Notes under the pieces: model-generated
Told to the model about the DNA's origin: nothing
Seen by the model: only the letters and a program-made list of their open reading frames with translations
Databases searched by the model: none
Made by a program: the position numbers and the translations under genes
In this document: one piece after another, positions 10,294-28,090 of the stretch
Numbering within the stretch: the stretch's first letter is position 1
Layout: every line of letters starts with the position of its first letter
Origin: Pedococcus badiiscoriae
GTDB taxonomy: Bacteria; Actinomycetota; Actinomycetes; Actinomycetales; Dermatophilaceae
Direction of reading: 5' to 3'
NCBI RefSeq assembly: GCF_013408925.1
Contig: NZ_JACCAB010000001.1
Span: 1,302,001 to 1,366,000, forward strand
DNA length: 64,000 nt

Positions 10294-10356
10294 ACAACCG
10301 TCAACCATCGTCAGGCTGGTTTGTTCCACGCCCACGCCAGATGTGCTCCACGGCGG

Positions 10357-12632: not shown

Positions 12633-12669
12633 GGCGTTCCTCGTTCCTTCGGTGGGGATGGGGCAAAGG

Positions 12670-13989
12670 TTAGGCGTGGTACTGCCTGAGACGAAGCGTG
12701 GCCGTGCGCTCGTGCGCCTCCATGCCCTCGAAGTGTGCGATCCGCTCGACATATGGCGCGAGCTCGGGAGTGGCTTCGCGGGTCGCCCGCTGGTAGGTCA
12801 ACGGCCGCAGGAAGCGGGACACCGAGAGGCCGGCGTTGGATCGCGCCCCACGGCCGGTCGGCAGGACGTGGTTGGTGCCTCCCATGCCCTTGTCCGAGTA
12901 TGCGACGGTCGACCACGGCCCCAGGAAGATCGACCCGTAGCTGCTCAGGTGGTCGTGGTACCAGTCGTCCTCGGCCGTCAGCACCTCGAGGTGCTCGGGG
13001 GCGAGCAGGTCCATGAGCTCGACCGCGGTCTCCCGCGTGTCAGCCAGGTACACGGTGCCATAGTCGCGCCATGCGGGGCCCGCGATCTCCCGGGTGGAGA
13101 GCGTCTCGAGCTGCCGGTCGACCGCCAAGATGACGGCCTCTCCCAAGGCCCTGGACGTGGTGACCAGCGAGGCCGGCGACTGAAGACCGTGTTCCGCCTG
13201 ACCCAGGAGGTCCGCGGCGACCATCTCGGGGTCGGCGGTCTCATCGGCGATCACCGCGACCTCGGACGGCCCGGCCAGCAGGTCGATGCCCACACGGCCG
13301 AACAGCTGTCGCTTCGCCTCCGTGACGTAGGCGTTGCCCGCGCCGACGAGCATGTCGACAGACGCCTCGCCGACCAGCCCGAAGGCCATCGCGGCCAGTG
13401 CCTGGACCCCACCGAGGACGAAGGCGCGATCGGCTCCCGACAGGTACGCGGCGTACAGCACCGCTGGGTGACCGGCCTCGGGGGTCACCGGCGGGGTGCA
13501 GACGAGCACGGTCGGGACCTCAGCGGCCTTCGCCACGCCGACGGTCATGAAGGCGCTGGCCAGGATCGGGAAGTTGCCGGCGGGCAGGTAGGCGCCGACC
13601 CGCGGCACGGGCAGGTAGCGGTAGCCCGTGAGCAGTCCCGGCTCCAGCTCGACCTCGAAGTCCGTCAGGCGTTCACGCTGAGCCCGGGCGAAGCGTCCCG
13701 TCCGGTCGGCGCCGACCTCCAGCGCTTCGCGCAGGTCCGCAGGGAGCTCGTCGCCCGTGCGGGCCAGGGCCTCGGCCGAGAGCTCGAGCTCGCCGCCGGC
13801 CCATCCGTCGAGGGTCCGCGAGTAGCGCAGGACGGCGTCTAGTCCGTTGGCCTCGATGTCGCTCAACATCGAGGACACCGTCTCGATGACGTCGGGGCGT
13901 CGCTGCGCGGGCACCCCCCCGATGTCGCCCTTCTTGAGGGTCTCGAACTGCCCAGTGATGCGTGGTCTGTCGCTGTTGCCAATGTGCAT
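12670..13989 (-). CDS. Histidinol dehydrogenase-like enzyme (catabolic HisD paralogue 1)
   Basis: A 439-residue HisD-superfamily dehydrogenase counted from MHIGNSDRP (ATG 13987-13989). It keeps the fold signatures: AYLPAGNFPILASAFMTV, LVGAGNAYVTEAKRQLFG, GIDLLAGPSEVAVIAD, the zinc-site QAEHG, the GTNHVLPT motif and the final His in EGMEAH. The first gene of a catabolic operon with an APC permease, it is not in a his biosynthesis operon. Its pattern (YGSIFLG...YSDKGMGGTNHVLPT, EGMEAH) recalls HpsN, the sulfopropanediol dehydrogenase, more than biosynthetic HisD. Its likely role is NAD-dependent oxidation of a primary alcohol to an acid. No Shine-Dalgarno is visible; it may be leaderless. Confidence 0.8.
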   Translation of the reverse strand: MHIGNSDRPRITGQFETLKKGDIGGVPAQRRPDVIETVSSMLSDIEANGLDAVLRYSRTLDGWAGGELELSAEALARTGDELPADLREALEVGADRTGRFARAQRERLTDFEVELEPGLLTGYRYLPVPRVGAYLPAGNFPILASAFMTVGVAKAAEVPTVLVCTPPVTPEAGHPAVLYAAYLSGADRAFVLGGVQALAAMAFGLVGEASVDMLVGAGNAYVTEAKRQLFGRVGIDLLAGPSEVAVIADETADPEMVAADLLGQAEHGLQSPASLVTTSRALGEAVILAVDRQLETLSTREIAGPAWRDYGTVYLADTRETAVELMDLLAPEHLEVLTAEDDWYHDHLSSYGSIFLGPWSTVAYSDKGMGGTNHVLPTGRGARSNAGLSVSRFLRPLTYQRATREATPELAPYVERIAHFEGMEAHERTATLRLRQYHA

Positions 13990-14060
13990 ACAGCGAAGAT
14001 AAGGAGTCGCGATCAATAGGACAACCCATAGTGAAACGATCGACAATATAGGGTTTCCTT
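13990..14060. promoter_or_regulatory. Divergent promoter/operator region for LysR and HisD operon
   Basis: This is a 71-bp AT-rich gap between divergent starts. It contains AACCCATAG at about 14024-14032 and TATAGGGTT at about 14047-14055, an imperfect inverted repeat. A further AATAGGACAAC lies just before. Neither gene has a visible Shine-Dalgarno, so both mRNAs may be leaderless. This is a plausible site for autoregulation by the LysR protein. Confidence 0.45.
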
Positions 14061-14990
14061 GTGACTCTGGCGCAGCTGAGGGCCTTCCTGATGGTCCTGG
14101 AAACCGGTTCGTTCACGGGTGCCGCGAAGCGCCTCGACACGAGCCAGGCATCGGTGAGCGAGCTCGTCTCCCGACTCGAGGACGAGCTCGGGCTGTCACT
14201 GTTCACCCGAGGAGGACGCCAGCTGGCGCCTACCGCGGCCGCCGCCGAGCTGCGCGTGCACGCCTTGCAAGCCACGGCCGCCGTCGAGAGTGGTCGCAAT
14301 GCACTGCAAGCGATGCGCTCCCTGACCTCGGGGGTGTGCACCTTCGGGGTGCTGCGCAATGCCGCGTACTACGACCTCGCGGATCTGGCCCACCAGTTCC
14401 ACGCACGCTTCCCCGGGGTGCAGCTGCGAATGGTGGGGCTCAACTCCGCCCTGGTCGCAGAGTCCGTCCGGACGGGCGAGCTGGAAGCCGGCCTGGTCGT
14501 TCTCCCCGTCAGCGAGGAAGGGCTGGTCGTGACGCCCCTGTTCGACGACGAAGTCCTGTACTGCTCGAGCACCCGCGCGGCGTCGGCCGGCCCGGTGGAG
14601 ATCCGCGAGCTCGCTGACGTCTCCTTGGTGCTCTACGACGCACACGTCGGCTGGAGCGACCCGACGCGGCTCCAGCTGCGCGAGCGGGCGGTGGCCGCCG
14701 GCGTCGACCTGGTCCCGGTGATCGAGGTCGAACAGGTGGAGACGGCACTCGGGCTGGTCGGTCAGGGCGTCGGCGACACCATCGTCAGCAGCTCGATCGT
14801 CAGATCCCCGACGTTCCCGTCCCATCTGCGGACGTTCCCGTTCGCCGAGCCGCTGAACGACACCATCGCCCTCATCCAACGAGAAGGACAGGTGCTCTCC
14901 CCGGCCACCAGGCAGATGATCGCCCTCACCCGCCATTCCTTGCGCTGGCGCATCCCCGAGCCGCGCGGTCGGCGGCCGAGGTCGTCCTAG
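14061..14990 (+). CDS. LysR-family transcriptional regulator
   Basis: A 309-residue regulator with an N-terminal winged helix (TLAQLRAFLMVLETGSFTGAAKRL, then SQASVSELVSRLEDELG) and a type 2 periplasmic-binding-like effector domain from about residue 90. The start is GTG at 14061 with no ribosome site, perhaps leaderless. It is divergent from the HisD-like/permease/nitrilase/LLM operon, so by the usual LysR arrangement it should control that operon in response to its substrate. Confidence 0.92.
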   Translation: MTLAQLRAFLMVLETGSFTGAAKRLDTSQASVSELVSRLEDELGLSLFTRGGRQLAPTAAAAELRVHALQATAAVESGRNALQAMRSLTSGVCTFGVLRNAAYYDLADLAHQFHARFPGVQLRMVGLNSALVAESVRTGELEAGLVVLPVSEEGLVVTPLFDDEVLYCSSTRAASAGPVEIRELADVSLVLYDAHVGWSDPTRLQLRERAVAAGVDLVPVIEVEQVETALGLVGQGVGDTIVSSSIVRSPTFPSHLRTFPFAEPLNDTIALIQREGQVLSPATRQMIALTRHSLRWRIPEPRGRRPRSS

Positions 14991-14999
14991 CGCGCGGCG

Positions 15000-16130
15000 T
15001 CAGGACGTCCGGCCGGCGAGCAGGCTGGCGGGGGCGAGGTAGCCGTTGGGGTCCAGGGCAACTCCGTTGGCCTCGGCCTCGGCCACGACCGGGGCGGCCC
15101 ATTCGATGTAGACACGCCCATCGCCCTCGGTCAGGAGGACGACCTGGGTCGCATCCTCGCCGACGCATTCGAAGCTGCGCCATGCCCCGACAGGGATGGA
15201 GAGGGTGTCGTAGGGACCGAGCTCGACCGAGACCGGGCTGTCCTGGTTGAGGCTGACCTTCAGACGCCCGCTCTTGACGATCAGGACCTGGGACTGGGCA
15301 AGGCGGTGCTGACCCACGCCTTGACCTGGCTGGGCACGCAGCCAGGCGAGTGACATGCCATGCGGATCCGACAGTCGAGGGCGCTGGAAGCGGTCCTCGG
15401 TCAGCCCGTAGCCGACCACCAGCGCAAGCTGCGCCCCGCCACCCGGCAGCGTCGAGTCCAGGAACGGCTTCTCGCTCCAGACGAGGTCCGCCGGCTTCGC
15501 CAGGCGCTCGCGCATCTCGTCGACGGAGTACCGGCGCAACGCGCCGAGCTGGTCAGCGGACAGTGGCTTGATCAGCTCGACGCCCTCGGGCGCGACACCG
15601 GGCTCCGTCTCGATGATCTTGTTGTCGGCGGACAGGTGCATCCCGTACTGAGCAGCCTTCTCGATCACCGAGGGCGCCCAGATCAGGCCCCCGCTCTCGT
15701 CCCGCCCGAGCGCGGTGAAGAGCCACGCGTCGTCCGTCTTGCTGGTGAAGCCGCGGAAGATCCACGTCGGGATCGAGATGACGTCGCCGTCGGAGACGAC
15801 GGCCTCACCATCGGCGCCGTCCACACCCCACCTGAACTGCCACTCGCCGGCGAAGCAGACGAACACCTCGGCGGTGAAGTGCAGGTGCAGGTTGTTCACC
15901 ACGCCCGCGGGCATCACCGCGCCACCCAGGTTGAAGCCATGGGGCTCGGTCACCGGGATGACCTGGTCAGCATTCTCGGACACGCCCGGTCCGATCAGGG
16001 GATAGTTGATCTTGGCCTCCGAGCCGGGGATCTTCGTGTCCAGGAAGGCAGCCCGGTCTTCCTTGAGGTCCTTGCGCAGGATGGTGCGGTAGGCGAGCTC
16101 TTCTGGAGTGACGACGACTTCGGCAGGCAT
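15000..16130 (-). CDS. Two-domain cupin protein
   Basis: A 376-residue bicupin. The first cupin (about 65-145) has HLHFTAEVFVCFAGEW and IPTWIFRGF; the HxH...E pattern gives likely metal ligands. The second (about 255-345) has QSQVLIVKSGRLKVSL and IPVGAWRSFECVG but lacks the HxH pattern, so only the first domain looks metal-binding. A dioxygenase, isomerase or sugar-acid-binding role is possible. Its ATG (16128-16130) is divergent from the HpcH aldolase across a gap holding a LacI-type operator, which ties it to the same regulon. Confidence 0.75.
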   Translation of the reverse strand: MPAEVVVTPEELAYRTILRKDLKEDRAAFLDTKIPGSEAKINYPLIGPGVSENADQVIPVTEPHGFNLGGAVMPAGVVNNLHLHFTAEVFVCFAGEWQFRWGVDGADGEAVVSDGDVISIPTWIFRGFTSKTDDAWLFTALGRDESGGLIWAPSVIEKAAQYGMHLSADNKIIETEPGVAPEGVELIKPLSADQLGALRRYSVDEMRERLAKPADLVWSEKPFLDSTLPGGGAQLALVVGYGLTEDRFQRPRLSDPHGMSLAWLRAQPGQGVGQHRLAQSQVLIVKSGRLKVSLNQDSPVSVELGPYDTLSIPVGAWRSFECVGEDATQVVLLTEGDGRVYIEWAAPVVAEAEANGVALDPNGYLAPASLLAGRTS

Positions 16131-16165: not shown

Positions 16166-16184
16166 AATGAATACGTATGTATGA
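16166..16184. promoter_or_regulatory. LacI-type operator, copy 1
   Basis: The core palindrome ATACGTAT is at 16171-16178 within AATGAATACGTATGTATGA. It lies 41 bp before the bicupin start and 67 bp before the aldolase start, between divergent genes. It has the central CG typical of LacI-family sites. The same 8-mer occurs only at two other places I could find in the window (20365 and 26033), each upstream of an operon of this locus. Confidence 0.75.
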
Positions 16185-16244
16185 TGGCGAGTGCCAGCAT
16201 GCTTGTCAACCCGAATTGCCTTGCTACGACGGACGGAGGACCCG

Positions 16245-17039
16245 GTGAGAGAGAACCGGCTGCGCGCGACCATGGCCTCGGATCGCGCTGCCGTGAGCGC
16301 GTGGATGTCGATCGGCAGCCCCTACCTGGCCGAGGTGCTGTCCCATTGCGGCTATGACGCCGTGACGGTGGACCTGCAGCACGGCATGTTCGGTCTGGAC
16401 AGCGCGATCACGATGTTGCAGGGAATCAGTGCGGGGCCGGCCGTTCCGATGGCCCGCTGCCCCTCACTCGATCCGGCGATCATCGGCAAGCTGCTCGACG
16501 CCGGCGCCTACGGAATCATCTGCCCGGTCGTCGACACCGCCGTCGAGGCCGCCGCTTTCGTCCGCGCGTGCCACTACCCGCCGGATGGAGCCCGAAGCTT
16601 CGGTCCCTCGCGAGGCTTGCTCTACGGCGGCAGCGACTACGTCGACCACGCCGATGCCACGATCCTCACGTGGGCGATGATCGAGTCGGCACAGGCCCTG
16701 GACAACCTCGGGGAGATCCTTGCGGTCGAGGGCCTGGACGGTGTGTACGTCGGTCCCAACGACCTGGCCCTCTCCCTCGGTGAGACCCCGGGGCAGGCAC
16801 ATCCACCCGCCGGGGTGACGCGGGCGCTCGCGCAGATCGCCGACGCGGCTCGTGCTGCCGGAAAGTGGGCCGGGGTCTTCAGCGCGGACGCCGTGGGCGC
16901 GAAGCAGATGGCGGAGCTGGGCTACCACCTCGTCACGCCCGGCAACGACGTGGGCGTCATGCGCAAGGCAGCCGCCGAGCTCATCGCGCACACCCACGGC
17001 GGCCAACCTGGGGGACCGCCCAGCGGTGGTGGGTACTGA
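16245..17039 (+). CDS. HpcH/HpaI-type class II aldolase
   Basis: A 264-residue 2-keto-3-deoxy-acid aldolase family member. It shows WMSIGSPYLAEVLSHCGYDAVTVDLQHG, RSFGPSRGLLYGGSDY, the metal Glu in MIESAQALDN and the metal Asp in VYVGPNDLALSLG. It should cleave a 2-keto-4-hydroxy acid to pyruvate plus an aldehyde using a divalent metal. GTG 16245 was chosen because GGAGGA sits five bases upstream; the longer frame has none. It probably supplies the carbon-carbon cleavage step of the locus. It is divergent from the bicupin. Confidence 0.88.
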   Translation: MRENRLRATMASDRAAVSAWMSIGSPYLAEVLSHCGYDAVTVDLQHGMFGLDSAITMLQGISAGPAVPMARCPSLDPAIIGKLLDAGAYGIICPVVDTAVEAAAFVRACHYPPDGARSFGPSRGLLYGGSDYVDHADATILTWAMIESAQALDNLGEILAVEGLDGVYVGPNDLALSLGETPGQAHPPAGVTRALAQIADAARAAGKWAGVFSADAVGAKQMAELGYHLVTPGNDVGVMRKAAAELIAHTHGGQPGGPPSGGGY

Positions 17040-17068
17040 CTCAGCCTGCGGTGGTCACGGGTCAGCGA

Positions 17069-18238
17069 TCACGCCGATGCGCGTGGGAGCCAGGCTCGCA
17101 CTGCGTCCGCAAGGCTGTCGGGATCCTCGAGCGGGAGCATGTGACCGCCGTGAAGCGTCACCAGCACCGAGCCCTCACAACCGTCGGCAAGCTCTTGCTG
17201 CAGTGCCGGCGGGCAGGTGTCGTCGAGCTCTCCGGACACGACCAGCACGGGCACAGCGATCGCGCCGAGACTCGCTCGGCTGTCGGGACGGGTTGACTGG
17301 GCCGCAAGCTGACGCAAGAAGCCCTCGACGCCCACGGCGTCGGCCATGCTGACGACAGCCTGGACAGTCGCCGGGTCCTCACGCGCAGCGGGGCCGAGCA
17401 ACGCCGGGGCCAGCTCTCGTGCGATCTGCTCGAGCTCGCCGTCGGTCGCGCGTTGGCGCCACCGGGCCCAGGTGTCCTGCTGCAGCTGCGAAGGGCCTCG
17501 GGGGCTGGCGTTGACGAGCAGGAGGCTGGTCACGCGTTCCGGTGCCTGGCGCATGACCTCCAGGGCGACGATCGCTCCGAGAGAGTGGCCGCCGAGCGCG
17601 AACCGCGGCGGCGCTTCCGCCAGCACGCTCGCCGCCATCTCGGCCACCGAGTCATCGAGGTCGATGCGGCACGGCCACGGCAGGACGACGTCCGATATCC
17701 GCGCGGCGAGCCCATCCCAGAGGTTGGCGTCACACAGCATTCCGCTGAGCAGGACCAGCGGCTCACGGCCCGACGCCAGGGCCCCGCTGGGACGCCCTTC
17801 GGTCAGGCCGGCAAAGACGGCGGCCAGCATCGCGGGCAGGTCGTAGGCCACGACCTCGGCGCCCGAGGCGAACGCCGCCCGCGCTGCCTGCGGTGACGTG
17901 ACGAGGCGGCCACGACCGGTGCGGGACAGAACCACCTCGACGTCACCCGCGCTGTCCTGCACGACCTCTGCGGCCACGAGGCCGTCGGCACCCGCCGCCC
18001 GGGCTACGGCACCGTCCTCGGCCGATTCCACCAGGACGAGCACCGGGGTCCGCGGTCCGACCAGCGCCCGGACCGCGCCGTAACGAGCGACGTCCGGCAC
18101 GACGATGAAATCCAGGCCTGAGGCCGCGTCGCGCGGGTCCTGCTCGGCGCCGAGGAGTGCACCGAGCAGCCGCTCACGCCGTCGCAGCCGTTGTTCGAAG
18201 GTGGGCGCGCCCGCTCCAGGCGGCAGGACGGAGCTCAC
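17069..18238 (-). CDS. Alpha/beta hydrolase with an N-terminal barrel-like domain
   Basis: A 389-residue protein starting with GTG at 18236-18238, five bases after the SDR stop. From about residue 160 to the end it is an alpha/beta hydrolase: LVLLSGMLCDANLWDG, nucleophile elbow GGHSLGAIVALEV, acid SGELDDTCPP, and His in HGGHMLPLEDP. The first 150 residues are not a usual hydrolase extension. FIVVPDVARYGAV, PVLVLVES, GADGLVAAEV and ASGAEVVAYDLPAML look like alternating strands and helices of a partial TIM barrel. It may hydrolyse a lactone or ester in the pathway. The fusion is uncommon in my experience. Confidence 0.75.
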   Translation of the reverse strand: MSSVLPPGAGAPTFEQRLRRRERLLGALLGAEQDPRDAASGLDFIVVPDVARYGAVRALVGPRTPVLVLVESAEDGAVARAAGADGLVAAEVVQDSAGDVEVVLSRTGRGRLVTSPQAARAAFASGAEVVAYDLPAMLAAVFAGLTEGRPSGALASGREPLVLLSGMLCDANLWDGLAARISDVVLPWPCRIDLDDSVAEMAASVLAEAPPRFALGGHSLGAIVALEVMRQAPERVTSLLLVNASPRGPSQLQQDTWARWRQRATDGELEQIARELAPALLGPAAREDPATVQAVVSMADAVGVEGFLRQLAAQSTRPDSRASLGAIAVPVLVVSGELDDTCPPALQQELADGCEGSVLVTLHGGHMLPLEDPDSLADAVRAWLPRASA

Positions 18239-18243
18239 GGCGC

Positions 18244-19005
18244 TTATCGTGCCACCATGCCTGCCGACAGGTCGATGTCGGCGCAGTGCAGCCCGGTCAT
18301 GTGCAGCATCGCCACCACCGCATCGCCTACCTCGGACTCCTCGACGAGACGACCCAGAGCCGCCCGTCCGGCGAAGGCTTCCTCGGCCTGCTGCTCGCTG
18401 ATGCCGAGCCGCTGAGACTCGAGCCGGAAGTTTCGCGCCATCCGCTCGCCCCGCACCGGCCCCGGAGACAGGCTGTTCACGCGCACACCGGACGTGCCGA
18501 CCTCGGCTCCGAGCGTGGTCGTGAGACCGATCACCGCCATCTTCGACGCGGTGTAGGGGGTGCGCATGGCAAGGGGCCGCTTGCCGCTGACCGAGGCCAG
18601 GTTGATGACGTCGCCCTGACCGCGCGCGATCATCGGAGGCAGAAAAGCCCTGCACATCAGGAAGATCCCGCGGACGTTGACCGCGAAGACCTCCTCCCAC
18701 TCGTCGAGCTCGATCTCGACGAGCGGCTTCACCGGCCCTGCCACCCCGGCGTTGTTCACCAACACGGAGATGACCTCGTCAGACAGCTCCGCGCGCAGTG
18801 TGGAGACCGAGTCGGCATCGGCGACGTCCACGATGCCGACTCGGGAGTTCCCGGCGATGAGGGCGGCCGTGTCTCGCAGCGGCCCTTCACGACGCCCCGC
18901 GACGATGACGCGGTATCCCGCCTGGGACAACGCGATCGCTATGGCGCGGCCCAGCCCGTTGCCCGCGCCGGTGACCAGCGCGGTCCGGGCCGCTTGGTCA
19001 GGCAT
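18244..19005 (-). CDS. Short-chain dehydrogenase/reductase
   Basis: A 253-residue classical SDR. It has TGAGNGLGRAIA (cofactor glycine motif), DVADADS after strand 3, NNAGVAG, the catalytic Ser in NLASVSG and YTASK (Tyr and Lys), then SPGPVRGERM. The start MPDQAARTALVTGAG (ATG 19003-19005) overlaps the end of the upstream HisD-like gene by 8 bases, so the two are translationally coupled. It probably carries out an NAD(P)-linked oxidation of a hydroxyl group in the same pathway. Confidence 0.92.
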   Translation of the reverse strand: MPDQAARTALVTGAGNGLGRAIAIALSQAGYRVIVAGRREGPLRDTAALIAGNSRVGIVDVADADSVSTLRAELSDEVISVLVNNAGVAGPVKPLVEIELDEWEEVFAVNVRGIFLMCRAFLPPMIARGQGDVINLASVSGKRPLAMRTPYTASKMAVIGLTTTLGAEVGTSGVRVNSLSPGPVRGERMARNFRLESQRLGISEQQAEEAFAGRAALGRLVEESEVGDAVVAMLHMTGLHCADIDLSAGMVAR

Positions 19006-20317
19006 GCGCGGTGAACTGGTGCTCACTCCAGTCGAGGGGTGCCCCGGCATACTTCGCCGCACGCACGTCGCCCGAACGGGCATGCCCCTCGAAGAGCTCG
19101 ACCCGTGCGGCGCGACCGCACAGCTCGCCGAGCATCGCGCTGGAGTCGGTGTCGGTCACCTCTTGGTAGGTCACTGTCTTGAGGTACTTGCCCACCCAGA
19201 GGCCGCCGGTGAAGCGGGCGCTCCCCCGAGTCGGCAGTACGTGGTTCGTCCCGATCACCTTGTCGCCGTATGAGACACAGGTCCCCTCACCGAGGAACAG
19301 CGCGCCGTAGTTCTGCATCTTCTCCAGGGCCTGCCGAGGGGAGCTCGTGAGCACCTGGACGTGCTCGGAGGCGAACGTGTCAGCGACCGCGAAAGCCTCG
19401 TCGATCGAGTCGACGACGAGCACCTGGCCGTGGTCGCGCCACGCCGGGCCCGCATAGTCGCGCGTCGGCATGTCCACCAGGATCCGCTCGATATGGTCCA
19501 TCGCAGCCCTGGCGACGGTCTCGCTCGTGGTCACGAGGACGGCAGGCGAGTCCGGTCCGTGTTCGGCCTGGCTCAGCAGGTCGACGGCCACAATGAACGG
19601 GTCGGCGTCCTCGTCGGCGATGACCAGGATCTCGGTGGGCCCTGCGAACAGGTCGATGCCCACCTGCCCGAAGAGCTGACGCTTGGCCTCCGCCACGTAG
19701 GCGTTCCCCGGGCCGGCAATGAGATCGACCCGGCCGATCGACTCGGTGCCGATGGCCAGGGCGGCCATGGCTTGCACTCCGCCCAGCAGATAGATCTCGT
19801 CGGCCCCCGCCATCGACATCGCCGCCACGGTGGCGGCGGGGATCTGTCCCCTGATCGGCGGTGTGCAGGCTGCGACGCGCGGTACCCCTGCGACCTTCGC
19901 GGTCACGATCGTCATGTGGGCCGAGGCGGTGAGCGGATAGCGACCACCGGGGACGTAGGCCCCGACCGCGGAGATCGGGACGTTCTTCTGTCCGAGGTGC
20001 ACGCCGGGCAGCGTCTCCACCTCGAAGTCGGTCAGGGACGCGCGCTGGGCCTCGGCGAACCGGCGGACCTGGGCCTGTACGAACTCGATGTCTCGGATGA
20101 CCTGCTCGGGAACCCCGGCCACGATCTCGGCGATCTGCCCCGCGGACAGCCGGAAGGACTCGGGGCTCCAGCTGTCGAACTTCGTCGAGTACGTCCGCAC
20201 GGCCTCGTCCCCGCGAGCACGGACGTCGTCCAGCACCTCACGAACGGTCGCGGCCACCTCCTCGCGGCCACTGGTGAGCGACTCAGCGGGGACGGCCTGC
20301 TTGAGCTGGGTGATCAT
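18998..20317 (-). CDS. Histidinol dehydrogenase-like enzyme (catabolic HisD paralogue 2)
   Basis: A 439-residue HisD-superfamily protein. Signatures are GAYVPGGRYPLTASAHMTI, LIAGPGNAYVAEAKRQLFG, GIDLFAGPTEILVIADEDADP, QAEHGPDSPAVLVTT, EHVQVL, YGDKVIGTNHVLPT and a C-terminal EGHARSGDVRAAKY. The last part matches the EGMEGHARAADVRLAKY pattern I recall for HpsN-type dehydrogenases but with two residues deleted before the His. It is the first gene of the HisD-SDR-hydrolase operon, behind an ATACGTAT operator 48 bp upstream. It is likely to be an NAD-dependent alcohol-to-acid dehydrogenase for a small polyol-like compound, not a histidine biosynthesis enzyme. Confidence 0.82.
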   Translation of the reverse strand: MITQLKQAVPAESLTSGREEVAATVREVLDDVRARGDEAVRTYSTKFDSWSPESFRLSAGQIAEIVAGVPEQVIRDIEFVQAQVRRFAEAQRASLTDFEVETLPGVHLGQKNVPISAVGAYVPGGRYPLTASAHMTIVTAKVAGVPRVAACTPPIRGQIPAATVAAMSMAGADEIYLLGGVQAMAALAIGTESIGRVDLIAGPGNAYVAEAKRQLFGQVGIDLFAGPTEILVIADEDADPFIVAVDLLSQAEHGPDSPAVLVTTSETVARAAMDHIERILVDMPTRDYAGPAWRDHGQVLVVDSIDEAFAVADTFASEHVQVLTSSPRQALEKMQNYGALFLGEGTCVSYGDKVIGTNHVLPTRGSARFTGGLWVGKYLKTVTYQEVTDTDSSAMLGELCGRAARVELFEGHARSGDVRAAKYAGAPLDWSEHQFTAHA

Positions 20318-20357
20318 GACGCCTCTCGAAGGATGAAGACGGGGATGCGAGCCGACT

Positions 20358-20377
20358 CAAATGTATACGTATGCACA
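20358..20377. promoter_or_regulatory. LacI-type operator, copy 2
   Basis: ATACGTAT at 20365-20372 sits within AATGTATACGTATGCACAC, 48 bp upstream of the HisD paralogue 2 start and about 108 bp downstream of the lacI-type gene. It aligns with copies 1 and 3 over TGNATACGTATGYAY. Confidence 0.75.
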
Positions 20378-20479
20378 CGTCGTCGTCAAGAGTCGGTTGC
20401 CTCATCGTTCGACAGCCATAGACCGGGTCGCCCCGCACCCTGCGCCGGCCAACGCGACGCACCGCGCAGGCGACTTCCC

Positions 20480-21496
20480 TTACGTGGAAAGGCTGCTCGC
20501 CACCGAGCCGGTGCCGTGGTGGGTGCCGCGCAGGACCAGCTGGGTCGGAAAGACGTGCGTACGAGCCGGGCTGTCGTCGCCACCCAGTCGACGGACCAGC
20601 AGATCCGCCGCGGCGACCGCCATGCCCGACAGGTCGACGCGCGCAGTGGTGAGGTTGAAGCATGGCCACGCGGCCATCGCGATGTCGTCGAAGCCGACGA
20701 TCGCCACGTCGTCGGGGACCGACAGGCCCATGCGCTGCGCCTGGTTGAGCGCCCCGACCGCGACGAGGTCACCGACGCAGAACACAGCCGTCGGGCGGTG
20801 CCGCCCGGTCATCAACGCCGCGAAACCGCGTTCACCGTCGTCGAAGCCGAACCCGGTGCGGGCCACCCGACGCTCGGGCAGGTCGATGCCGGCCTCGACC
20901 AGGGCGGCGCGGAAGCCGGCCTCGCGGTCACGGCTGGTGCTGGAGTCGGCACTGCTGAACACCGCTGCAATCCGCCGGTGACCCTCACGCACCAGGAGCC
21001 GGGCGACGTCAGCTGCGCCGCCGTGGTTGTCGGCGGCGACGCCGTCCACCTTGCGCCTCCCCGACAAGCGGTTCAGCTCGACGAAGGGAAGCCCCTTGTC
21101 GAGCAGGCCCTTGGACAGCGACGAACCGATCAGCGTGGTGGTGAGGACGACCCCGTCAACCGAGCGGTCCAGGAGACGCTCGTAGGTGGCCCGGTCGTCA
21201 CCACGCTCCGCCAGCAGCAGCATCCGGAGACCGTGGTGGGCGAAGCGGTCGTGCAACGGCTCGACGAGGGCGGGGTAGAGCGCGTTTCGCAGGTCGGCGA
21301 CCATCGCGATCTGATGGGTCGAGCGTGTGGAGAGGCTTCGGCCGAGCTCGCTGGGGACGTAGCCGAGCTCGGTGGCAACCCGCTGGACCTTCTGCCTGGT
21401 CGCGTCGGCCACGCGCGGATCGTCACGCAACGCCCTGGACACGGTCGGCTGCGACACCCCCGCCGCGCGCGCGACGTCGTGACTGGTCACTGCCAT
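20480..21496 (-). CDS. LacI-family transcriptional regulator
   Basis: A 338-residue repressor. The N-terminal helix-turn-helix reads TSHDVARAAGVSQPTVSRALRDD, with hinge LGYVPSELGRSL. A sugar-binding-protein-like effector domain follows, ending with VGDLVAVGALNQAQ, VGFDDIAMAAW and TTARVDLSGMAVAAADLL. AAGGGAGG precedes ATG 21496. It lies in the middle of the 15-26 kb catabolic locus. The three ATACGTAT palindromes in front of the flanking operons are its natural candidate targets. Confidence 0.95.
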   Translation of the reverse strand: MAVTSHDVARAAGVSQPTVSRALRDDPRVADATRQKVQRVATELGYVPSELGRSLSTRSTHQIAMVADLRNALYPALVEPLHDRFAHHGLRMLLLAERGDDRATYERLLDRSVDGVVLTTTLIGSSLSKGLLDKGLPFVELNRLSGRRKVDGVAADNHGGAADVARLLVREGHRRIAAVFSSADSSTSRDREAGFRAALVEAGIDLPERRVARTGFGFDDGERGFAALMTGRHRPTAVFCVGDLVAVGALNQAQRMGLSVPDDVAIVGFDDIAMAAWPCFNLTTARVDLSGMAVAAADLLVRRLGGDDSPARTHVFPTQLVLRGTHHGTGSVASSLST

Positions 21497-21610
21497 GGCT
21501 GCCTCCCTTCCCCGTCGTCTGTCGCCCGACTGTACCGAGGCGCATGTGTGGCTCAGTAGACGGCTACGACGGGGGCAGGGCGGTTGGCCGCCCTGCCCCG
21601 CGACCTTGGC

Positions 21611-22888
21611 TCAGAGCATGCCTGCCGGTTCGTCACTGAGGATCTGGGCCATGACGTCGAACTCGTTGAACATCTGCCAGTCCTCGGTGATCTGCCCGTG
21701 CGAGATGTAGAGCTGGTTGATGCCCCAGAGGTGGACGCGGCGGTTCGTCGGCTCGCGATAGAGCGCGTAGCCCCGATGGGTTCCCTGGGCGGTCCACCGG
21801 ACCGAGACCCGGTAGCCCTCGACCTCGTTGCCCATCCAGTACACCTCGTCGACCTGCATGCCGAGGTCCGGGAAGGTCGCCATCAGCGCGCGCGCCATGC
21901 CCTTGATGTCCTGGCGTCCGTAGCCAGCCCTGTTGGACGTGCCCTTCCAGCGCGCGGTCGCCGCATACGCCTTGTCCACAGCGCTGAGGTCGCGGCGGTT
22001 GTACACGTTGTGCCAGAGCGACCGCACGAAGTGCTCGACGTCGAACGCGCGGGTCCCGGACTCCGGGTAGGGCTCCGGCAACCGGCCCCCTGCGAGGCGT
22101 TGGACCTCACCTTGGTGGCGGTCGGCGACCGTGCGGTTCAGCTCGTTGCCGTACTCGCGAGCGGCCCACGCCGGATCGATGCCTAGCTGCATGAACCTCG
22201 AGACCATGTTGTAGAGGACCCACTCCTCGAAGATCTCGTTCTCACGGATCACGCAGTTGGCCAGGCCCCACAGGTTGACCTTGCGGCCGGTGGCAGGGCC
22301 CCACCGCCACGCGCCGAGATGGTGCCCGGTGGTGATGTACCGGTGGGAGGTGACGAAGCCCTGGTCCTCGTCACCGGCCCAGATGACCTCGTCGGCCCAC
22401 GAACGGGTGTCCGGAAACGCGTGCAGCGCACCCATGGTCGCCTCGACGACGCGCTCTACCCCGTAGTGGGGACCGCTGTCGTCGTAGACAAAACAGCCGG
22501 GAGAGTAGGTGTCGTAGATGTAGCCGACGTCCTGGTCCTCCCAGATCCGATGGGTGATCCGGACGATGTAGTCCACGATGTCGGTGTAGGTGTCTTCGAA
22601 GCCGCGCATCGACTGGACACGAGCACCTCGCTCACGCTCGGCGCGCACCGTGTCACTCCCGGTCCCAGGGCGCACCGCGATCCGGAAGTCGCTCGGCATC
22701 GCCCGGCGGGACTCGCCGGCGCCGATGGTCGCCGCCTGGATGGGGTGGGGGGTCACGCCCGGATCGGGTATGCCGTCGTGCCCGACAACGAGGCCGGTGG
22801 GCTGGGGGGCGCGACCGGCCGGGGAGGCGGCGCTCGCGGGCGCCGCCTCCTGGCGGGTCGATCCGTTTTCCACGCCGTCAGACTCCAT
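21611..22888 (-). CDS. Tandem SnoaL/NTF2-like domain protein
   Basis: A 425-residue protein with two related SnoaL-like folds, about 100-250 (DTYSPGCFVYDDSG, WADEVIWAGDEDQGFVTSHRY, NLWGLANCVI) and about 280-420 (WKGTSNRAGYGRQDIKG, VDEVYWMGNEVEGYRVSVRW, HLWGINQLYIS). The parallel WGxxN and hydrophobic pocket motifs show an internal duplication. SnoaL-like proteins act as hydrolases, isomerases or lyases on polar or cyclic substrates. The first 63 residues are Ala/Pro-rich and probably disordered. The ATG overlaps the stop of the ABC binding-protein gene (TGATG), so it is translated with the importer. It is the last gene of that operon. Confidence 0.78.
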   Translation of the reverse strand: MESDGVENGSTRQEAAPASAASPAGRAPQPTGLVVGHDGIPDPGVTPHPIQAATIGAGESRRAMPSDFRIAVRPGTGSDTVRAERERGARVQSMRGFEDTYTDIVDYIVRITHRIWEDQDVGYIYDTYSPGCFVYDDSGPHYGVERVVEATMGALHAFPDTRSWADEVIWAGDEDQGFVTSHRYITTGHHLGAWRWGPATGRKVNLWGLANCVIRENEIFEEWVLYNMVSRFMQLGIDPAWAAREYGNELNRTVADRHQGEVQRLAGGRLPEPYPESGTRAFDVEHFVRSLWHNVYNRRDLSAVDKAYAATARWKGTSNRAGYGRQDIKGMARALMATFPDLGMQVDEVYWMGNEVEGYRVSVRWTAQGTHRGYALYREPTNRRVHLWGINQLYISHGQITEDWQMFNEFDVMAQILSDEPAGML

Positions 22889-23910
22889 CAGCCCGAGCAG
22901 TTGACGTCGTAAATGTACTGCTTCGCCTTGTCGGAGTTCACCGTTTCGGGCGTGACGAAGATGGCGTCAGCGGCCTGGTTGCGCGGGACCGACTTGCCCT
23001 GCATAGCGGCCACGGCGGAGTCGACACCCGTGGCACCTTCACCGCGCGGGAACTGCACCACCGTTCCCGTCAGCGAGCCGTCCTTCAGGGCGGCGACGAT
23101 CGGCTCGGAGGTGTCGTAGCCGACCACCTTGACCTTGCCGGACTTCCCCGCCTCGCGTACGCCTGTCAGGGCACCCGTGGTGTTGTTGGTCTCCGCCCCG
23201 AACACCCCGACGAGGTCGGCGTTGGTCGCGGCAGTGGTGGAGACGATCGAGGCCGCCTTGCTGACGTCGTTGGCGCTGAACTGGATCGGGAGGACCTTCA
23301 TGTTCGGGTACTTGGCGATCGCCTTCTGGAAGCCGTCGGTGCGCGCCTTGGAGACGACCGAGCCGGTCGCGTTGTCGATGATGAGGACCGTGCCCTTCTC
23401 ACCCACCGCCTTGGCGAGCGCGTCCCCGGCGAGGCCGCCCCCCTGCACCCCGTCCGACTGGATGTTGGTGGTCATGATGCTGGTGTCCGAGAGGTCGCCG
23501 TCGATGCCGATGATCTTCACGCCGGCCTGCTTGGCGGCGGTCAGGGGGCCGATCATCGCCGTCGGGTCAGTGATCGAGATCATGATCGCGCCGGGCTTGG
23601 TCGCGACGACCGCATTGAGGATCTTCGTCTGCTCCGGGACACCGAAGGTTGGCGCACCCTGGTAGGAGAAGTCGACGCCGAGCTTGCTCGCCTCGGTCTT
23701 CGCACCGCAGGAGACGGTGTTGTAGAACGGGTTTCCCGTCAAGCCGGGGATGTAGACGATCTTGCCCATGGCGGCGGACGAGCTGCTGCTGGATGCCCCA
23801 CCGCTCGATGTCGACGTCGATGTCGATGCGCCCGGTCCCGCGCAGCCTGTCGCCAGGGCGACGGAGGCGACGCCGACGGTTGCCGCGGCCCACTTGCTGA
23901 TGCCTGTCAT
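22888..23910 (-). CDS. Sugar-type ABC transporter substrate-binding lipoprotein
   Basis: A 340-residue periplasmic-binding-protein-like lipoprotein of the ribose/autoinducer (RbsB) class. The signal ends in lipobox LATGC with the modified C23, then a Ser/Thr-rich linker. The mature domain has IVYIPGLTGNPFYNTVSCGAK, ISITDPTAMIGPL, IIGIDGDLSD and VVGYDTSEPIV. AAAGGATCACC precedes ATG 23908-23910, so the longer upstream frame is not used. It captures the ligand for the permease and ATPase encoded just upstream. Confidence 0.93.
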   Translation of the reverse strand: MTGISKWAAATVGVASVALATGCAGPGASTSTSTSSGGASSSSSSAAMGKIVYIPGLTGNPFYNTVSCGAKTEASKLGVDFSYQGAPTFGVPEQTKILNAVVATKPGAIMISITDPTAMIGPLTAAKQAGVKIIGIDGDLSDTSIMTTNIQSDGVQGGGLAGDALAKAVGEKGTVLIIDNATGSVVSKARTDGFQKAIAKYPNMKVLPIQFSANDVSKAASIVSTTAATNADLVGVFGAETNNTTGALTGVREAGKSGKVKVVGYDTSEPIVAALKDGSLTGTVVQFPRGEGATGVDSAVAAMQGKSVPRNQAADAIFVTPETVNSDKAKQYIYDVNCSG

Positions 23911-23966
23911 GGTGATCCTTTGCTGGGGTGAGATGGGTTCCTGCGTTGCTGGGTAAAGGTTTCCGG

Positions 23967-25094
23967 TCAACCCTTGTCGCGGGCGCGACGCTTGAGCTGG
24001 TCGAGGTAGACGGCGCCGATGAGGATGAAGCCGATGGCGACGTTCTGCCAGAAGGGCTGGACGTTCTGCACGACGAGTCCGTTCTGGAGGACGGTCGGGA
24101 TGAAGATGCCGATGACGGTTCCGAGCACGACGCCGTACCCGCCGTAGAGGCTGGTGCCGCCGAGGATGACGCCGGTGATGACGGTCAGGGCGTCCTGCGA
24201 GTGGCCGCCGATCGTCGTGGTCGAGAACCGGACCAGCGACATCATCCCCGCGAGCCCGGCCAGGGCGCCGCTGATCGCATACAGCTTCACCAGGTGGGCA
24301 TTGACGTTGATCCCGGCGCGCCGGGCCGCCTCGTCGTTCGAGCCGATGACGTAGGTGTGCCGGCCGAAGCGGGTGTAGCGGAGCACTGCGCCCCCGATGA
24401 GGACGACGACCAGTGACAGCCAGACGATCCACGGCATGCCCAGCACGTCATCGATCTGGAGCTGGATCATCGACTTCTGCGACACCGAGATGTCGTTGCC
24501 GTTCGTCATCAGGTTCGCGATACCCAGGGCCGCGCCCAAGGTACCGAGGGTGGTGATCAACGCAGGCACGCGCAGGCGCGTCACGCAGAACCCGTTGAAC
24601 AGGCCCCAGGCGACGCCACCGAGCAGGGCCGCGACCAGCCCCGCCAGAGCCGTCCCATAACCCTGACCGCCGACCCAGGTCATCGTCTTGACCGCGCAGA
24701 TGCCGGCGAACACCAGCACCGACCCGATCGAGAGGTCGAAGCCGGCGGCGACCATGACATAGGTCATCCCGACCGACATGACCAGGACGATCGAGGTGTC
24801 CACGACCAGGTTCTTGACGTTCGCCTGCGTGGGGAAGGTGGTCGGGGAGAGGGCGCTGAATATCACGAACATCACCACCAGCACCGCGAACATGTAGGCG
24901 GGCGAGGAGCTGAACCCACGGCGGATGAGCCGGCTGCGTGCCGAGACCCCGCTGGCCGCCACCGCGTCGACGGCGTCGCCCGCAGGGCCACCGGCGGGCT
25001 CGGTGGGAGTGGTGATGGCGAGCTCCGAGGGTGCGGACGAGGCGGCATACCCCTTCTCCGTGCCCAGCTCGGGGTCGCGCTCGATCCGGCTCAT
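23967..25094 (-). CDS. RbsC-type ABC transporter permease
   Basis: A 375-residue inner-membrane permease. The N-terminal 65 residues are hydrophilic and Pro/Ala-rich. About 10 membrane segments follow, with the BPD_transp_2 signatures VAAGFDLSIGSVLVFAG, LRVPALITTLG, IGSNDEAARRAGI (the ATPase coupling helix) and VILGGTSLYGGYGVVLGT. It forms the channel of the sugar-type importer. Its ATG overlaps the ATPase stop (ATGA at 25091-25094). Confidence 0.94.
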   Translation of the reverse strand: MSRIERDPELGTEKGYAASSAPSELAITTPTEPAGGPAGDAVDAVAASGVSARSRLIRRGFSSSPAYMFAVLVVMFVIFSALSPTTFPTQANVKNLVVDTSIVLVMSVGMTYVMVAAGFDLSIGSVLVFAGICAVKTMTWVGGQGYGTALAGLVAALLGGVAWGLFNGFCVTRLRVPALITTLGTLGAALGIANLMTNGNDISVSQKSMIQLQIDDVLGMPWIVWLSLVVVLIGGAVLRYTRFGRHTYVIGSNDEAARRAGINVNAHLVKLYAISGALAGLAGMMSLVRFSTTTIGGHSQDALTVITGVILGGTSLYGGYGVVLGTVIGIFIPTVLQNGLVVQNVQPFWQNVAIGFILIGAVYLDQLKRRARDKG

Positions 25095-25852
25095 GACGCC
25101 ACGTCCAGGGAGCCGGTCATCGCACCCACGAGATCGTCGACAGTCGCGCTGTTCGTGAACTCGGCAACCCGGCGACCCAGCCGAAGCACCTGGATCGAGT
25201 CCGAGACCTCGAGCACCTCAGGCATGTTGTGGCTGATCAGCACGACCGCGACCCCCTCGTCGGCGACGCGGCGGATCAGGTCGAGCACCCGCCGGGTCTG
25301 CCGAACGCCGAGTGCCGCGGTCGGTTCGTCCATGAAGACCAGGCCTTTGGCCCACATCACCGAGCGGCAGATGGCGACGCTCTGTCGTTGTCCACCGGAC
25401 AGGGCCGCGACGGATGCGTCCATGTCCTTGACGTCGGTGCCGAGCGAGGTGAAGGTCTTGAACGCCTCGCGGCGCATCCGCTTCTTGTCGAGCACGCCCA
25501 GCTTGCCGAGCAGACCTGGCATCAGGAGCTCACGGCCGATGTAGGCGTTCTCGGCCGGCCCGAGGTCGGGCGCCAGCGCCAGATCCTGGTACACCGTCTC
25601 GATGCCGCAGTCCCTCGCGTGAGTCGGGGACTGGAACTCGACCTCCTTCCCGTTCATCAGGATCGTCCCGCCCTGCGGGGGCATCACTCCGGAGAGGATC
25701 TTGACGAGAGTGCTCTTGCCGGCTCCGTTGTCGCCGATGAGGGCGGTGACCCGGCCGGGCGCGGCATGAAAGTCGGTCTCCCTGAGCACCTGCACGTGCC
25801 CGTAGCTCTTCACGATGCCTCGGGCTTCGAGGAGGTAGGACGTTTCTGCCAT
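25091..25852 (-). CDS. ABC transporter ATPase, single-domain RbsA type
   Basis: A 253-residue ATPase with Walker A GDNGAGKST, Q loop TVYQDLALAPDL, signature LSGGQRQ, Walker B GLVFMDEP followed by TAALG, and switch His in LISHNMPEV. The LAPDLGPAENAYIGRE segment is typical of carbohydrate importers of the CUT2 class. CUT2 ATPases often have two fused domains; this one has a single domain and presumably dimerises, as in FrcA-like systems. It is the first gene of the importer operon, with an operator 181 bp upstream. Its end overlaps the permease start. Confidence 0.93.
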   Translation of the reverse strand: MAETSYLLEARGIVKSYGHVQVLRETDFHAAPGRVTALIGDNGAGKSTLVKILSGVMPPQGGTILMNGKEVEFQSPTHARDCGIETVYQDLALAPDLGPAENAYIGRELLMPGLLGKLGVLDKKRMRREAFKTFTSLGTDVKDMDASVAALSGGQRQSVAICRSVMWAKGLVFMDEPTAALGVRQTRRVLDLIRRVADEGVAVVLISHNMPEVLEVSDSIQVLRLGRRVAEFTNSATVDDLVGAMTGSLDVAS

Positions 25853-26191
25853 CTCCGAACCTTTCTCAGTGGATCGCGGATGCTGGCGCGGGGAGCCCGG
25901 ACTCGGCCATCGCCTCAGCGACCTCGGTCATGCGCAGCAACTTCACGACCGCGAGGCTGCCTCCTACGGCTCGAGGAACCGATGGCATTGACTGCATGTC
26001 GGCGACAGTAACGAACTCGAAGCCGAATTGGAATACGTATGTACAAAATTGTTATCGGCCCCCGCGCAGGCCAGAACCCAGTCGCCGCAGGCGCGCCGGA
26101 TCATCGAGGCCCGCGGTGCTCTGGTGGTCGGCCCGCTGCTACGGCGGGTGGACAGGCACCTGCCCTGACTCGCAGCAGGCGCGCCCCAGCG
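25853..26191. other. 339-bp region upstream of the importer operon
   Basis: It lies between the kup stop and the ABC ATPase start, both on the minus strand. It holds the third ATACGTAT operator and, overlapping it on the minus strand, TTGTACATACGTATTCC, which could include a -35 element. A weak hairpin CCCGC/GCGGG lies near 26136-26152 as a possible kup terminator. No coding region convinced me. Confidence 0.5.
26026..26046. promoter_or_regulatory. LacI-type operator, copy 3
   Basis: ATACGTAT at 26033-26040 within TTGGAATACGTATGTACAA, the only strongly AT-rich stretch in the leader of the ABC importer operon. It aligns with the copies at 16171 and 20365. Confidence 0.72.
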
Positions 26192-28090
26192 CTACAGGAC
26201 GACGGCCGCGCCCATAGCGACGGTCCGGTCCTCGGGCAGCCGGAAGTACTCGATCGGTGACGCGGCGTTGTGCGCCAGCCCCAGGAACACCCGCTTGCGC
26301 CACGGACTCATCTCGCGGCCTGACCCCCGTTGGAGGCTGATCCGCGACAGGAAGTAGTAGGCCGTGTCCGGGTCCACGTCGAGGATCCCCAGGTCCCGGG
26401 CGAGGGCGAGCGCCGCCGGGATGTCCTGGTCCTCCTGGAACCCGAACCGCAGGGTCAGGTGGGTGATCGCGTCATACGGATCGCCCAGGTGGTCCAGCTC
26501 GATGCGCTGCTCGTCGGGCACGTGCGGTGTGTTCTCCGACGTGGTGCTGACGATGAGGACGGTCTCGTGGATGACGTGGTTGAACAGCGCGTTCTCCCGC
26601 AGCGCCAGCGGCGTGGAGTCCTTGTTGGGGTGAAGGAAGACGGCGGTGCCGGCCACCTTGCCGACCGGGTCCCCGTGCAGCCACTCGATGAACGGTTCCA
26701 GCGGCCCTTCCATCTCCGTACGACGCGCGGTCACCAGGGTGCGCCCGCGCTGCCAGGTGAGCATCACCGTGGCGACGACGAGCGCGATCAGCAGCGGCAA
26801 CCACCCACCATGGGCGACCTTCGTCAGGTTGGCGCCGAAGTAGGTCAGCTCCAGCACTGCCAGCGGCACTCCGATCATCGCCAGCCGACCACGGCTCCAT
26901 CCCCACGCCGACTCGGCGAAGATGAGGAAGAGGGTCGTGGTGATCAGGAACGTGCCCGTCACCGCTAGTCCGTATGCCGTGGCGAGGCGCTCGGAGGAGC
27001 GGAAGAGCACGAGGAGCAGGATCACCCCCACGAACAGTGACCAGTTGACCGCCGCGATGTAGATCTGGCCACGCTCGTGCTTGGACGTGTGGCGCACGGT
27101 CAGCCGGGGCAGGAAGCCCAGCCGCTCGGCCTGGCGGGACACCGAGTAGGCCCCCGAGATGACCGCTTGCGAGGCGATGACGGTGGCAAGCGTCGCCAGG
27201 ATCACCAGGGGGACGACGAGCGCATGGGGGACCATCCGGAAGAAGGGGTTCGCCGACGTGGTCGGGTCCTTCAGGATGAGGGCCCCCTGACCGAGGTAGT
27301 TGAGGGTGAGGGCGGGAAACACCACGAGGAACCACGCACGCCGGATGGGCCCCGATCCGAAGTGCCCCATGTCGGCATACAAGGCCTCGGCGCCCGTGAT
27401 GGCCAGGACGACGGCACCCATGGCGACGAACGCGATGGTCGGGTGCTCGACCACGAACAGCACCGCGTAGTGGGGCGACAGGCCGCGCAGGATGGCGGGG
27501 TCACGCATGACCTGTGCGCCACCGAGAGCGGCGAGCACGGCAAACCACAGCACCATGACGGGGCCGAAGAACCGGCCCACCAGGTGGGTCCCGAAACGCT
27601 GGACGCCGAACAGGACGGCGATGATGGCCGCCCCGATGGGGACGACGAGCTTGTCGAGCTCGGGAGCCGTGACCGAGAGGCCCTCGATCGCCGACATCAC
27701 CGAGATCGCCGGGGTGATGACGCTGTCGCCGTAGAACAGCGACGCCCCGAGCACGCCGAGGAGCATGACCAGCCCGAACCGCTTGCCGCCGGGCCGCACT
27801 GCACTGCGCGCCAGGGCCGCCAACGCCATGACGCCTCCCTCGCCGTCGTTGTCGGCGCGCAGGATGAAGACCACGTACTTCACCGAGACCACGAGGGTGA
27901 TCGACCAGAAGACCAGCGAGATCACGCCGTACACGTCACCCGGAGTGGGCCTGACCATGTTGTGGTCGATGGAGAAGACGGTCTGGATCGCGTAGAGGGG
28001 GCTGGTGCCGATGTCGCCGAAGACAACGCCCAGCGCCCCCAACGCCAGAGGGACCCACCCGGCGGTGGACTGGTCGACATTCTTGGTCAC
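26192..28090 (-). CDS. kup: KUP/HAK/KT potassium uptake protein
   Basis: A 632-residue proton-coupled K+ transporter. The N terminus GALGVVFGDIGTSPLYAIQTVF is diagnostic for Kup, as are YVVFILRADNDGEGGVMALAAL, GASLFYGDSVITPAISVMSA and ALYADMGHFG. About 12 membrane helices fill the first 450 residues, and a cytoplasmic C-terminal domain follows. The start is GTG at 28088-28090, with GGGAGGATCC upstream. It is expected in the cytoplasmic membrane for K+ uptake. No riboswitch is visible in the short 45-bp gap upstream. Confidence 0.96.
   Translation of the reverse strand: MTKNVDQSTAGWVPLALGALGVVFGDIGTSPLYAIQTVFSIDHNMVRPTPGDVYGVISLVFWSITLVVSVKYVVFILRADNDGEGGVMALAALARSAVRPGGKRFGLVMLLGVLGASLFYGDSVITPAISVMSAIEGLSVTAPELDKLVVPIGAAIIAVLFGVQRFGTHLVGRFFGPVMVLWFAVLAALGGAQVMRDPAILRGLSPHYAVLFVVEHPTIAFVAMGAVVLAITGAEALYADMGHFGSGPIRRAWFLVVFPALTLNYLGQGALILKDPTTSANPFFRMVPHALVVPLVILATLATVIASQAVISGAYSVSRQAERLGFLPRLTVRHTSKHERGQIYIAAVNWSLFVGVILLLVLFRSSERLATAYGLAVTGTFLITTTLFLIFAESAWGWSRGRLAMIGVPLAVLELTYFGANLTKVAHGGWLPLLIALVVATVMLTWQRGRTLVTARRTEMEGPLEPFIEWLHGDPVGKVAGTAVFLHPNKDSTPLALRENALFNHVIHETVLIVSTTSENTPHVPDEQRIELDHLGDPYDAITHLTLRFGFQEDQDIPAALALARDLGILDVDPDTAYYFLSRISLQRGSGREMSPWRKRVFLGLAHNAASPIEYFRLPEDRTVAMGAAVVL

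Follow-up and report, generated by a model that had tools for sequence, protein, structure and literature searches.

A predicted LacI-type regulon for import and breakdown of one compound in Pedococcus badiiscoriae and related bacteria

We analysed a 64,000-nucleotide stretch of the Pedococcus badiiscoriae genome (the window, part of a single 3,386,878-base contig, i.e. a 3.39-Mb genome), and conclude that one LacI-type repressor encoded in it very probably governs both the import and the breakdown of a compound that is putatively sugar-acid-like or hydroxy-acid-like. According to this reading, to which we assign a probability of about 0.88 as a whole, the repressor would bind the palindrome TGCATACGTATGCA at three promoters and thereby block three transcription units of a local regulon until released by an inducer, whereupon the encoded enzymes would degrade the compound. 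Comparison of related loci argues strongly for the regulatory part of this proposal.

The repressor and its predicted operators

The repressor gene occupies positions 20480-21496 on the minus strand, in the middle of the locus as the initial annotation of this DNA had placed it, and encodes 338 residues with the helix-turn-helix VTSHDVARAAGVSQPTVSRAL. The protein belongs to the LacI family by its Pfam domains LacI (PF00356, 59.8 bits) and Peripla_BP_3 (PF13377, 122.3 bits), both of which score above cut-off, and it reaches no NCBIfam equivalog cut-off, the best match being CytR with 174.8 of 436 bits. The same annotation had pointed out an 8-bp palindrome, ATACGTAT, at 16171, 20365 and 26033, with fewer than 0.1 copies expected by chance in 64 kb. 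The coordinates are exact, all three copies are intergenic and precede genes, and dinucleotide shuffling gives an expectation of 0.05 copies per 64 kb. No further copy is found elsewhere in the 3,386,878-base genome, where the reversed-letter control does not occur either, and the worry that the 8-mer might be common genome-wide is thereby removed. The other 10 genomes of the genus, none of which holds this LacI at E 1e-40, carry 10 copies in total, 0-3 each, and three copies per genome are therefore not unusual in themselves, but their clustering within 9.9 kb at gene starts is.

Operator 1 (TGAATACGTATGTA, 16168-16181) lies in the gap that separates the bicupin gene, starting at 16130, from the divergent aldolase gene, for which a GTG at 16245 is the likely start, and scores 25.3 of a maximum of 26.8 bits with a matrix derived from relatives. 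Operator 2 (TGTATACGTATGCA, 20362-20375, 26.6 bits) is found between the end of lacI and hisD, approximately 51 bp upstream of hisD (start 20317), which is followed by genes for a short-chain dehydrogenase/reductase (SDR) and a hydrolase, distances being measured from the centre of the core to the start codon. Operator 3 (GGAATACGTATGTA, 26030-26043, 21.7 bits), in which one half-site is weaker, precedes the ABC importer-SnoaL genes, its distance to the start codon of the ABC ATPase gene at 25852 being approximately 184 bp. When the window is scanned with the matrix, the three sites score 21.7-26.6 of 26.8 bits and the next non-overlapping place 7.3 bits, and when the whole genome is searched for TGNATACGTATNCA with up to 2 mismatches, 5 places including the three known ones are returned, against 7 for the reversed control, so that nothing extra stands out. 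The wider alignment proposed initially, TGNATACGTATGYAY, fits operators 1 and 2, but operator 3 has G instead of T in the first position. On the bicupin side of operator 1 there is a promoter-like TTGACA-17-CATCAT, the -10 element of which stops 2 bases short of the 8-bp core, and the -10 element of a second promoter-like pair, TTGACG-18-TACATT, overlaps operator 2. A perfect 12-bp stem with 11 of 12 G-C pairs and a 4-nucleotide loop (21572-21599), a possible terminator without a T run, is furthermore found between the SnoaL and lacI genes, and lacI may therefore be transcribed separately. LacI-family operators are described in PMC4052901 as typically even palindromes with a central CG, and the present site agrees with that description, being an even palindrome with a central CG that recurs beside related regulator genes.

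Recurrence of the operator beside related repressors

Relatives of the repressor occur in 16 of the 186 genomes of the family to which the organism belongs, its own genome included (E 1e-40). An alignment of four LacI proteins was used to fetch loci from public genomes, and the best 80 of at least 570 stretches encoding a relative were retained (1.516 Mb in total; L040, L046 and L085 are the sources of query sequences). These contain 149 copies of ATACGTAT in 72 of the 80 loci, where an order-2 Markov model predicts 1.7 copies, and the runner-up by number of loci, among the 64 palindromes that share its base composition, reaches 18 loci with 19 copies. In 64 loci a copy lies at most 320 bp upstream of the lacI match, and at 13 loci of paralogous LacI proteins from the same bacterial family (L008-L020, approximately 4 kb each, 30-39% alike) there is no ATACGTAT at all. 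The 8-bp core was fixed by selection, but the three positions on either side of it were not used for selection and still read TGC and GCA at 58-72%; these palindromic flanks therefore constitute independent evidence that the operator is probably a 14-bp palindrome with the consensus TGCATACGTATGCA. In some carriers the 8-mer is no rarer than its reversed control (3 against 7 copies in genome G553, 2 against 2 in G018), and the evidence is therefore one of position and not of genome-wide count.

Twenty named genera possess the site, namely Amycolatopsis, Streptomyces, Nakamurella, Saccharopolyspora, Pseudonocardia, Humibacillus, Arthrobacter, Actinophytocola, Nocardia, Prauserella, Zhihengliuella, Pseudarthrobacter, Tamaricihabitans, Phytohabitans, Microbacterium, Subtercola, Agilicoccus, Dactylosporangium, Leucobacter and Bacillus. 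It is present in 53 of 55 loci with a HisD match of at least 58% identity, in 6 of 8 with 45-58% and in 13 of 17 with lower identity. Homologous segments starting within 400 bp of a site belong to LacI in 64 of the 80 loci, to bicupin in 38, to HisD in 28 (matches to HisD and its paralogue HisD2 overlap in these counts) and to SnoaL in 13. In the 37 of the 80 loci that were clustered by gene, which contain 60 sites, the operator precedes LacI (25 loci), bicupin (15), HisD (12) and SnoaL (5) genes, and five sites have no gene assigned. Importers that are not orthologous to one another in different genomes are likewise preceded by it, since it stands in front of CUT1-type ABC binding-protein genes in 5 of the 37 loci and of major facilitator superfamily genes in 4, the types being judged from one member each. 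That unrelated importers bear the same operator is as predicted if the uptake of one compound is controlled. That the operator accompanies related genes for LacI, bicupin, HisD and SnoaL in the 20 genera lends support to the proposal of one repressor acting at three sites, and because import and catabolic genes share the operator, the further inference that a single compound is imported and degraded appears a fair one.

Local catabolic repressors of the RbsR/CytR/GntR type resemble this system in domain architecture, in the even palindrome with a central CG, in the position of the gene beside its targets and in the probable autoregulation seen among the relatives. The present LacI differs from them in falling below every NCBIfam equivalog cut-off and in having a HisD paralogue, a bicupin and a double SnoaL protein among its predicted targets. 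It should also be mentioned that a Subtercola locus (L119) has two more copies of ATACGTAT, at 8093 and 8140 and thus 47 bp apart, directly upstream of another LacI-like gene (30% alike); these are flanked on the right by TTG-type sequence, where this regulon has GCA, and perhaps belong to a different LacI with a similar core.

HisD1, the predicted pathway and competing explanations

LacI-family repressors generally work by occluding promoters, from which an imported compound or an early intermediate releases them. The site, its conservation, its linkage and the residues of HisD1 are results of computation, whereas binding, repression, inducer and chemistry are inferred as follows. LacI would bind the 14-bp operator and occlude three promoters, blocking the bicupin and divergent aldolase genes, the hisD-SDR-hydrolase genes and the ABC importer-SnoaL genes, and the imported compound or an early product of it would bind the sugar-binding domain and so release the repressor. 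HisD1 would then probably convert a terminal CHOH-CH2OH group, a 1,2-diol, into a hydroxy acid by removing four electrons, from which the SDR would make a keto acid, a PcaD-like hydrolase would open a lactone or ester, and an HpcH/HpaI-type aldolase would release pyruvate and an aldehyde, the order of these steps being putative.

The enzyme on which this scheme turns, HisD1 (18998-20317, minus strand), is a member of the histidinol dehydrogenase family (PF00815) with the motif GRYPL. Its closest solved relatives are 2,3-dihydroxypropanesulfonate (DHPS) 3-dehydrogenases with 363-380 bits, whereas histidinol dehydrogenases reach at most 265 bits, and one may therefore ask if the locus degrades DHPS with HisD1 acting as HpsN. 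PMC11382572 gives Gln248, His251 and His411 together with His126 or Asp352 as zinc ligands of HpsN, names Glu318, His319 and Asp352 as important for activity, lets Lys353 touch the sulfonate, and treats His126 in a GRY[A/S]H motif as the mark of HpsN. With residue roles taken from that paper (CpHpsN numbering), the alignment shows that HisD1, which shares the fold family of HpsN (8v35, 8wwe), retains Gln248, His251, Asp352 and His411, Glu318 and His319, and Lys353 as well. The sulfonate-contacting His126 is however replaced, since HisD1 reads GRYPL at this place, and a histidine is found in this column in 0 of 57 aligned rows (47 from clustered loci, with the two of the window and that of Bacillus counted among them; nine plasmid sequences; and the other HisD of the genome), whereas the lysine is kept in 55 of 57, with that other HisD (Tyr) and the mis-framed row L050 deviating. 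Furthermore, HisD1 is linked to a LacI gene, no SuyAB, Xsc or CuyA-type lyase is found among the window genes scanned (the genome was not searched for them), and the HpsN network presented in PMC11382572 comprises Alpha-, Beta-, Gamma- and Deltaproteobacteria and Desulfobacteria. Sulfonate breakdown is hence not supported, because the diagnostic His126 is missing, and DHPS catabolism, which we consider improbable, was rejected on this ground.

A biosynthetic role can be set aside as well. Three PF00815 genes exist in the genome, and the third, at 2872047, is followed by an open reading frame that by eye appears aminotransferase-like and is presumably the biosynthetic one. HisD1 shares with biosynthetic HisD the PF00815 domain and the catalytic and zinc residues, but it is neither the only HisD of the genome nor linked to his genes, lying instead in a catabolic locus, and it has Lys where the genome's other HisD has Tyr and GRYPL where the latter has GRAVY. 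In an approximate tree without HpsN, HisD1 groups with plasmid copies and apart from HisD2 and its relatives. We therefore regard HisD1 as a probable HisD-family dehydrogenase for another substrate, and the retention of Lys353 together with the loss of His126 would point to an anionic group different from sulfonate. As far as the incomplete gene tables go, HisD is the only catabolic gene obviously tied to LacI in the stretches from Geobacillus, Salmonella and Priestia, and its product may therefore enter central metabolism directly; malate formed from 3,4-dihydroxybutyrate, or tartrate formed from a C4 aldonate, would in our judgement fit. The idea of aromatic or flavonoid degradation arises from the genes that surround HisD relatives on plasmids of Novosphingobium, Hymenobacter and Rhizobium, where HisD is 56-63% alike and the SDRs only about 35-43%, and where the hydrolase, bicupin, aldolase and SnoaL queries found no match.

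The sites might also belong to another regulator, such as the LysR-family protein encoded at 14061-14990 or a LacI elsewhere, with the local LacI acting on something else, and it is true that LysR is a recurring neighbour in the relatives. The sites nevertheless track the LacI gene, being directly upstream of it in the 64 of 80 loci mentioned above, whereas LysR is clustered in 14 of 38 loci and has a site nearby in only 3 of 37 and 6 of 80. Even palindromes with a central CG are moreover LacI-typical according to PMC4052901, and control by another regulator is consequently very improbable. Chance clustering of the 8-mer, which might be argued from the 0-3 copies per genome of the congeners, is contradicted by its confinement to 9.9 kb at gene starts, by its recurrence in the 80-locus counts and by its absence from all 13 paralogous control loci, and was rejected as practically negligible.

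Several observations nonetheless weigh against a single LacI regulon. Operator 3 is weaker, lies about 184 bp from the start codon and has no promoter-like match near it, and no site is found directly upstream of lacI here, unlike in most relatives; a Humibacillus relative (L040, L046) has no site near lacI either, its two sites standing before bicupin and before the SnoaL/importer genes. Eight of the 80 loci have no exact 8-mer, and although a near match with up to 2 mismatches exists in 6 of them, part of these near matches may be due to chance. Furthermore, 47 of the 149 sites have no homologue of a window gene within 400 bp. The counts are not independent, because the 80 loci are relatives of one another and include three query sources, the set is enriched for one DNA-binding type because helix-turn-helix words were used in the LacI scan, and the 13 control loci are only some 4 kb each. 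Finally, the proposed scheme does not account for the functions of the bicupin and SnoaL proteins.

Genes of the locus, their spread and implications

The genes for the ATPase, permease, binding protein, SnoaL, LacI, HisD1, SDR and hydrolase follow one another on the minus strand from right to left, with that of bicupin also on this strand, and the aldolase gene diverges from the latter on the plus strand. The importer consists of an ABC ATPase related to AraG/RbsA (25091-25852), an RbsC/AraH-like permease (23967-25094) and a sugar-type, ribose-like periplasmic binding protein (22888-23910). The binding protein and the BPD_transp_2 match of the permease are those of CUT2-type importers, but the ATPase with its 253 residues is half the usual length of RbsA/AraG-type ATPases, which are tandem proteins of about 500 residues. 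A Kup-type potassium transporter gene (26192-28090), which has the same orientation and is situated immediately upstream of operator 3, displays no sign of regulon membership. The SDR gene (18244-19005) has counterparts with 54-70% identity near HisD in many related loci. The alpha/beta hydrolase (17069-18238, start codon chosen by us) is PcaD-like in its C-terminal part and carries about 150 additional N-terminal residues that match no Pfam family, its counterpart in L083 being only 243 residues long. The aldolase (16245-17039, 264 residues, start codon likewise chosen by us) resembles the class II aldolases HpcH/HpaI, GarL and YfaU in family and by a near full-length match, but falls below every equivalog cut-off listed (HpaI 165.6 of 368.8 bits, the others lower). 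The bicupin protein (15000-16130, 376 residues, Pfam Cupin_2) has an N-terminal cupin in which His82, His84 and Glu88 are invariant among 26 aligned sequences, and its AlphaFold model (predicted local distance difference test score 94) matches oxalate decarboxylase, quercetin dioxygenase and seed globulin storage proteins with template modelling scores of about 0.5. For the double SnoaL-domain protein (21611-22888), residues 1-98 are modelled with low confidence and the domain models match many polyketide cyclases and epoxide-hydrolase-like folds. The fold matches of both proteins are general only, and neither assigns a reaction.

HisD2 (12670-14046, minus strand), a HisD1 paralogue with the motif GNFPI, adjoins the divergent LysR gene on the plus strand; it is linked to the locus in relatives and has no ATACGTAT in front of it here. 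In the region 9271-14990 the two lie beside genes for an amino-acid permease, a carbon-nitrogen hydrolase and a luciferase-like monooxygenase, and in relatives (e.g. L074, L083 and L028) HisD2-type genes and LysR are repeatedly found together next to the LacI regulon. Possibly, this is a second, LysR-controlled module of the same pathway.

The association extends to two Bacillota plasmids. On that of Geobacillus, TTGAATACGTATTCAA is found between lacI and hisD, and on that of Priestia megaterium (L113, 6785-6978) four copies of AGGAATACGTATTCCT are spaced 60-66 bp apart between divergent lacI and hisD, suggesting that binding may be cooperative or involve looping. In a Bacillus genome (L104), TTGAATACGTATTCAA precedes hisD, which is followed by a malic-enzyme-like gene, and GAATACGTATTCAA precedes a gene that matches GntP permeases only weakly (21.3 bits, the cut-off being 22.5). 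This genome is AT-rich and contains the 8-mer 155 times and its reversed control 97 times, so that only the longer palindrome and its position count there, which limits the strength of the case. Between lacI and hisD of a Salmonella plasmid lie two copies of a related palindrome, TGCATTCGAATGCA, and this pair, together with the Priestia and Geobacillus operators, may suggest that regulator and target travelled together across phyla. The LacI proteins beside these HisDs are however only 30-40% alike to that of the window, and common descent of the unit is therefore a suggestion. Other relatives do not fit, as the stretches fetched around the Metabacillus and Arthrobacter plasmid HisDs and those from Rhizobium, Novosphingobium, Mesorhizobium and Hymenobacter have no ATACGTAT; this includes the closest plasmid HisD (70%, Arthrobacter StoSoilB3), which has a different neighbourhood. 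Horizontal spread of the locus is likely, since LacI is found in 0 of 10 congeners and the SnoaL protein in none of the other 395 genomes of the order searched (E 1e-40). More tentatively, and with the odds against it, one may imagine an old mobile catabolic unit of LacI, the ATACGTAT operator and a third HisD clade (G[R/K]YP[L/M], Lys353 kept, His126 lost) that would oxidise a carboxylate counterpart of DHPS, yielding for example malate from 3,4-dihydroxybutyrate or tartrate from a C4 aldonate. Such a unit would comprise little beyond LacI and HisD in some Bacillota, one of which adds the malic-enzyme-like neighbour, and would have grown to a multi-operon pathway in Actinomycetota.

As a kind, a local LacI regulon is ordinary, and the interest of this one lies in its breadth, its substrate and the separate HisD clade. 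A literature search, judged on titles and abstract openings of the matches listed, found no published account of it. The regulator, the 14-bp operator and the targets make up a ready regulon definition for a widespread pathway for whose compound we found no description. The HisD comparison suggests furthermore a separate catabolic clade that takes in many actinobacterial proteins annotated as histidinol dehydrogenase, together with those of several plasmids from other phyla. Searches with the operator can bring more members of the pathway to light, and screening the repressor for inducers would be a direct way to the substrate.

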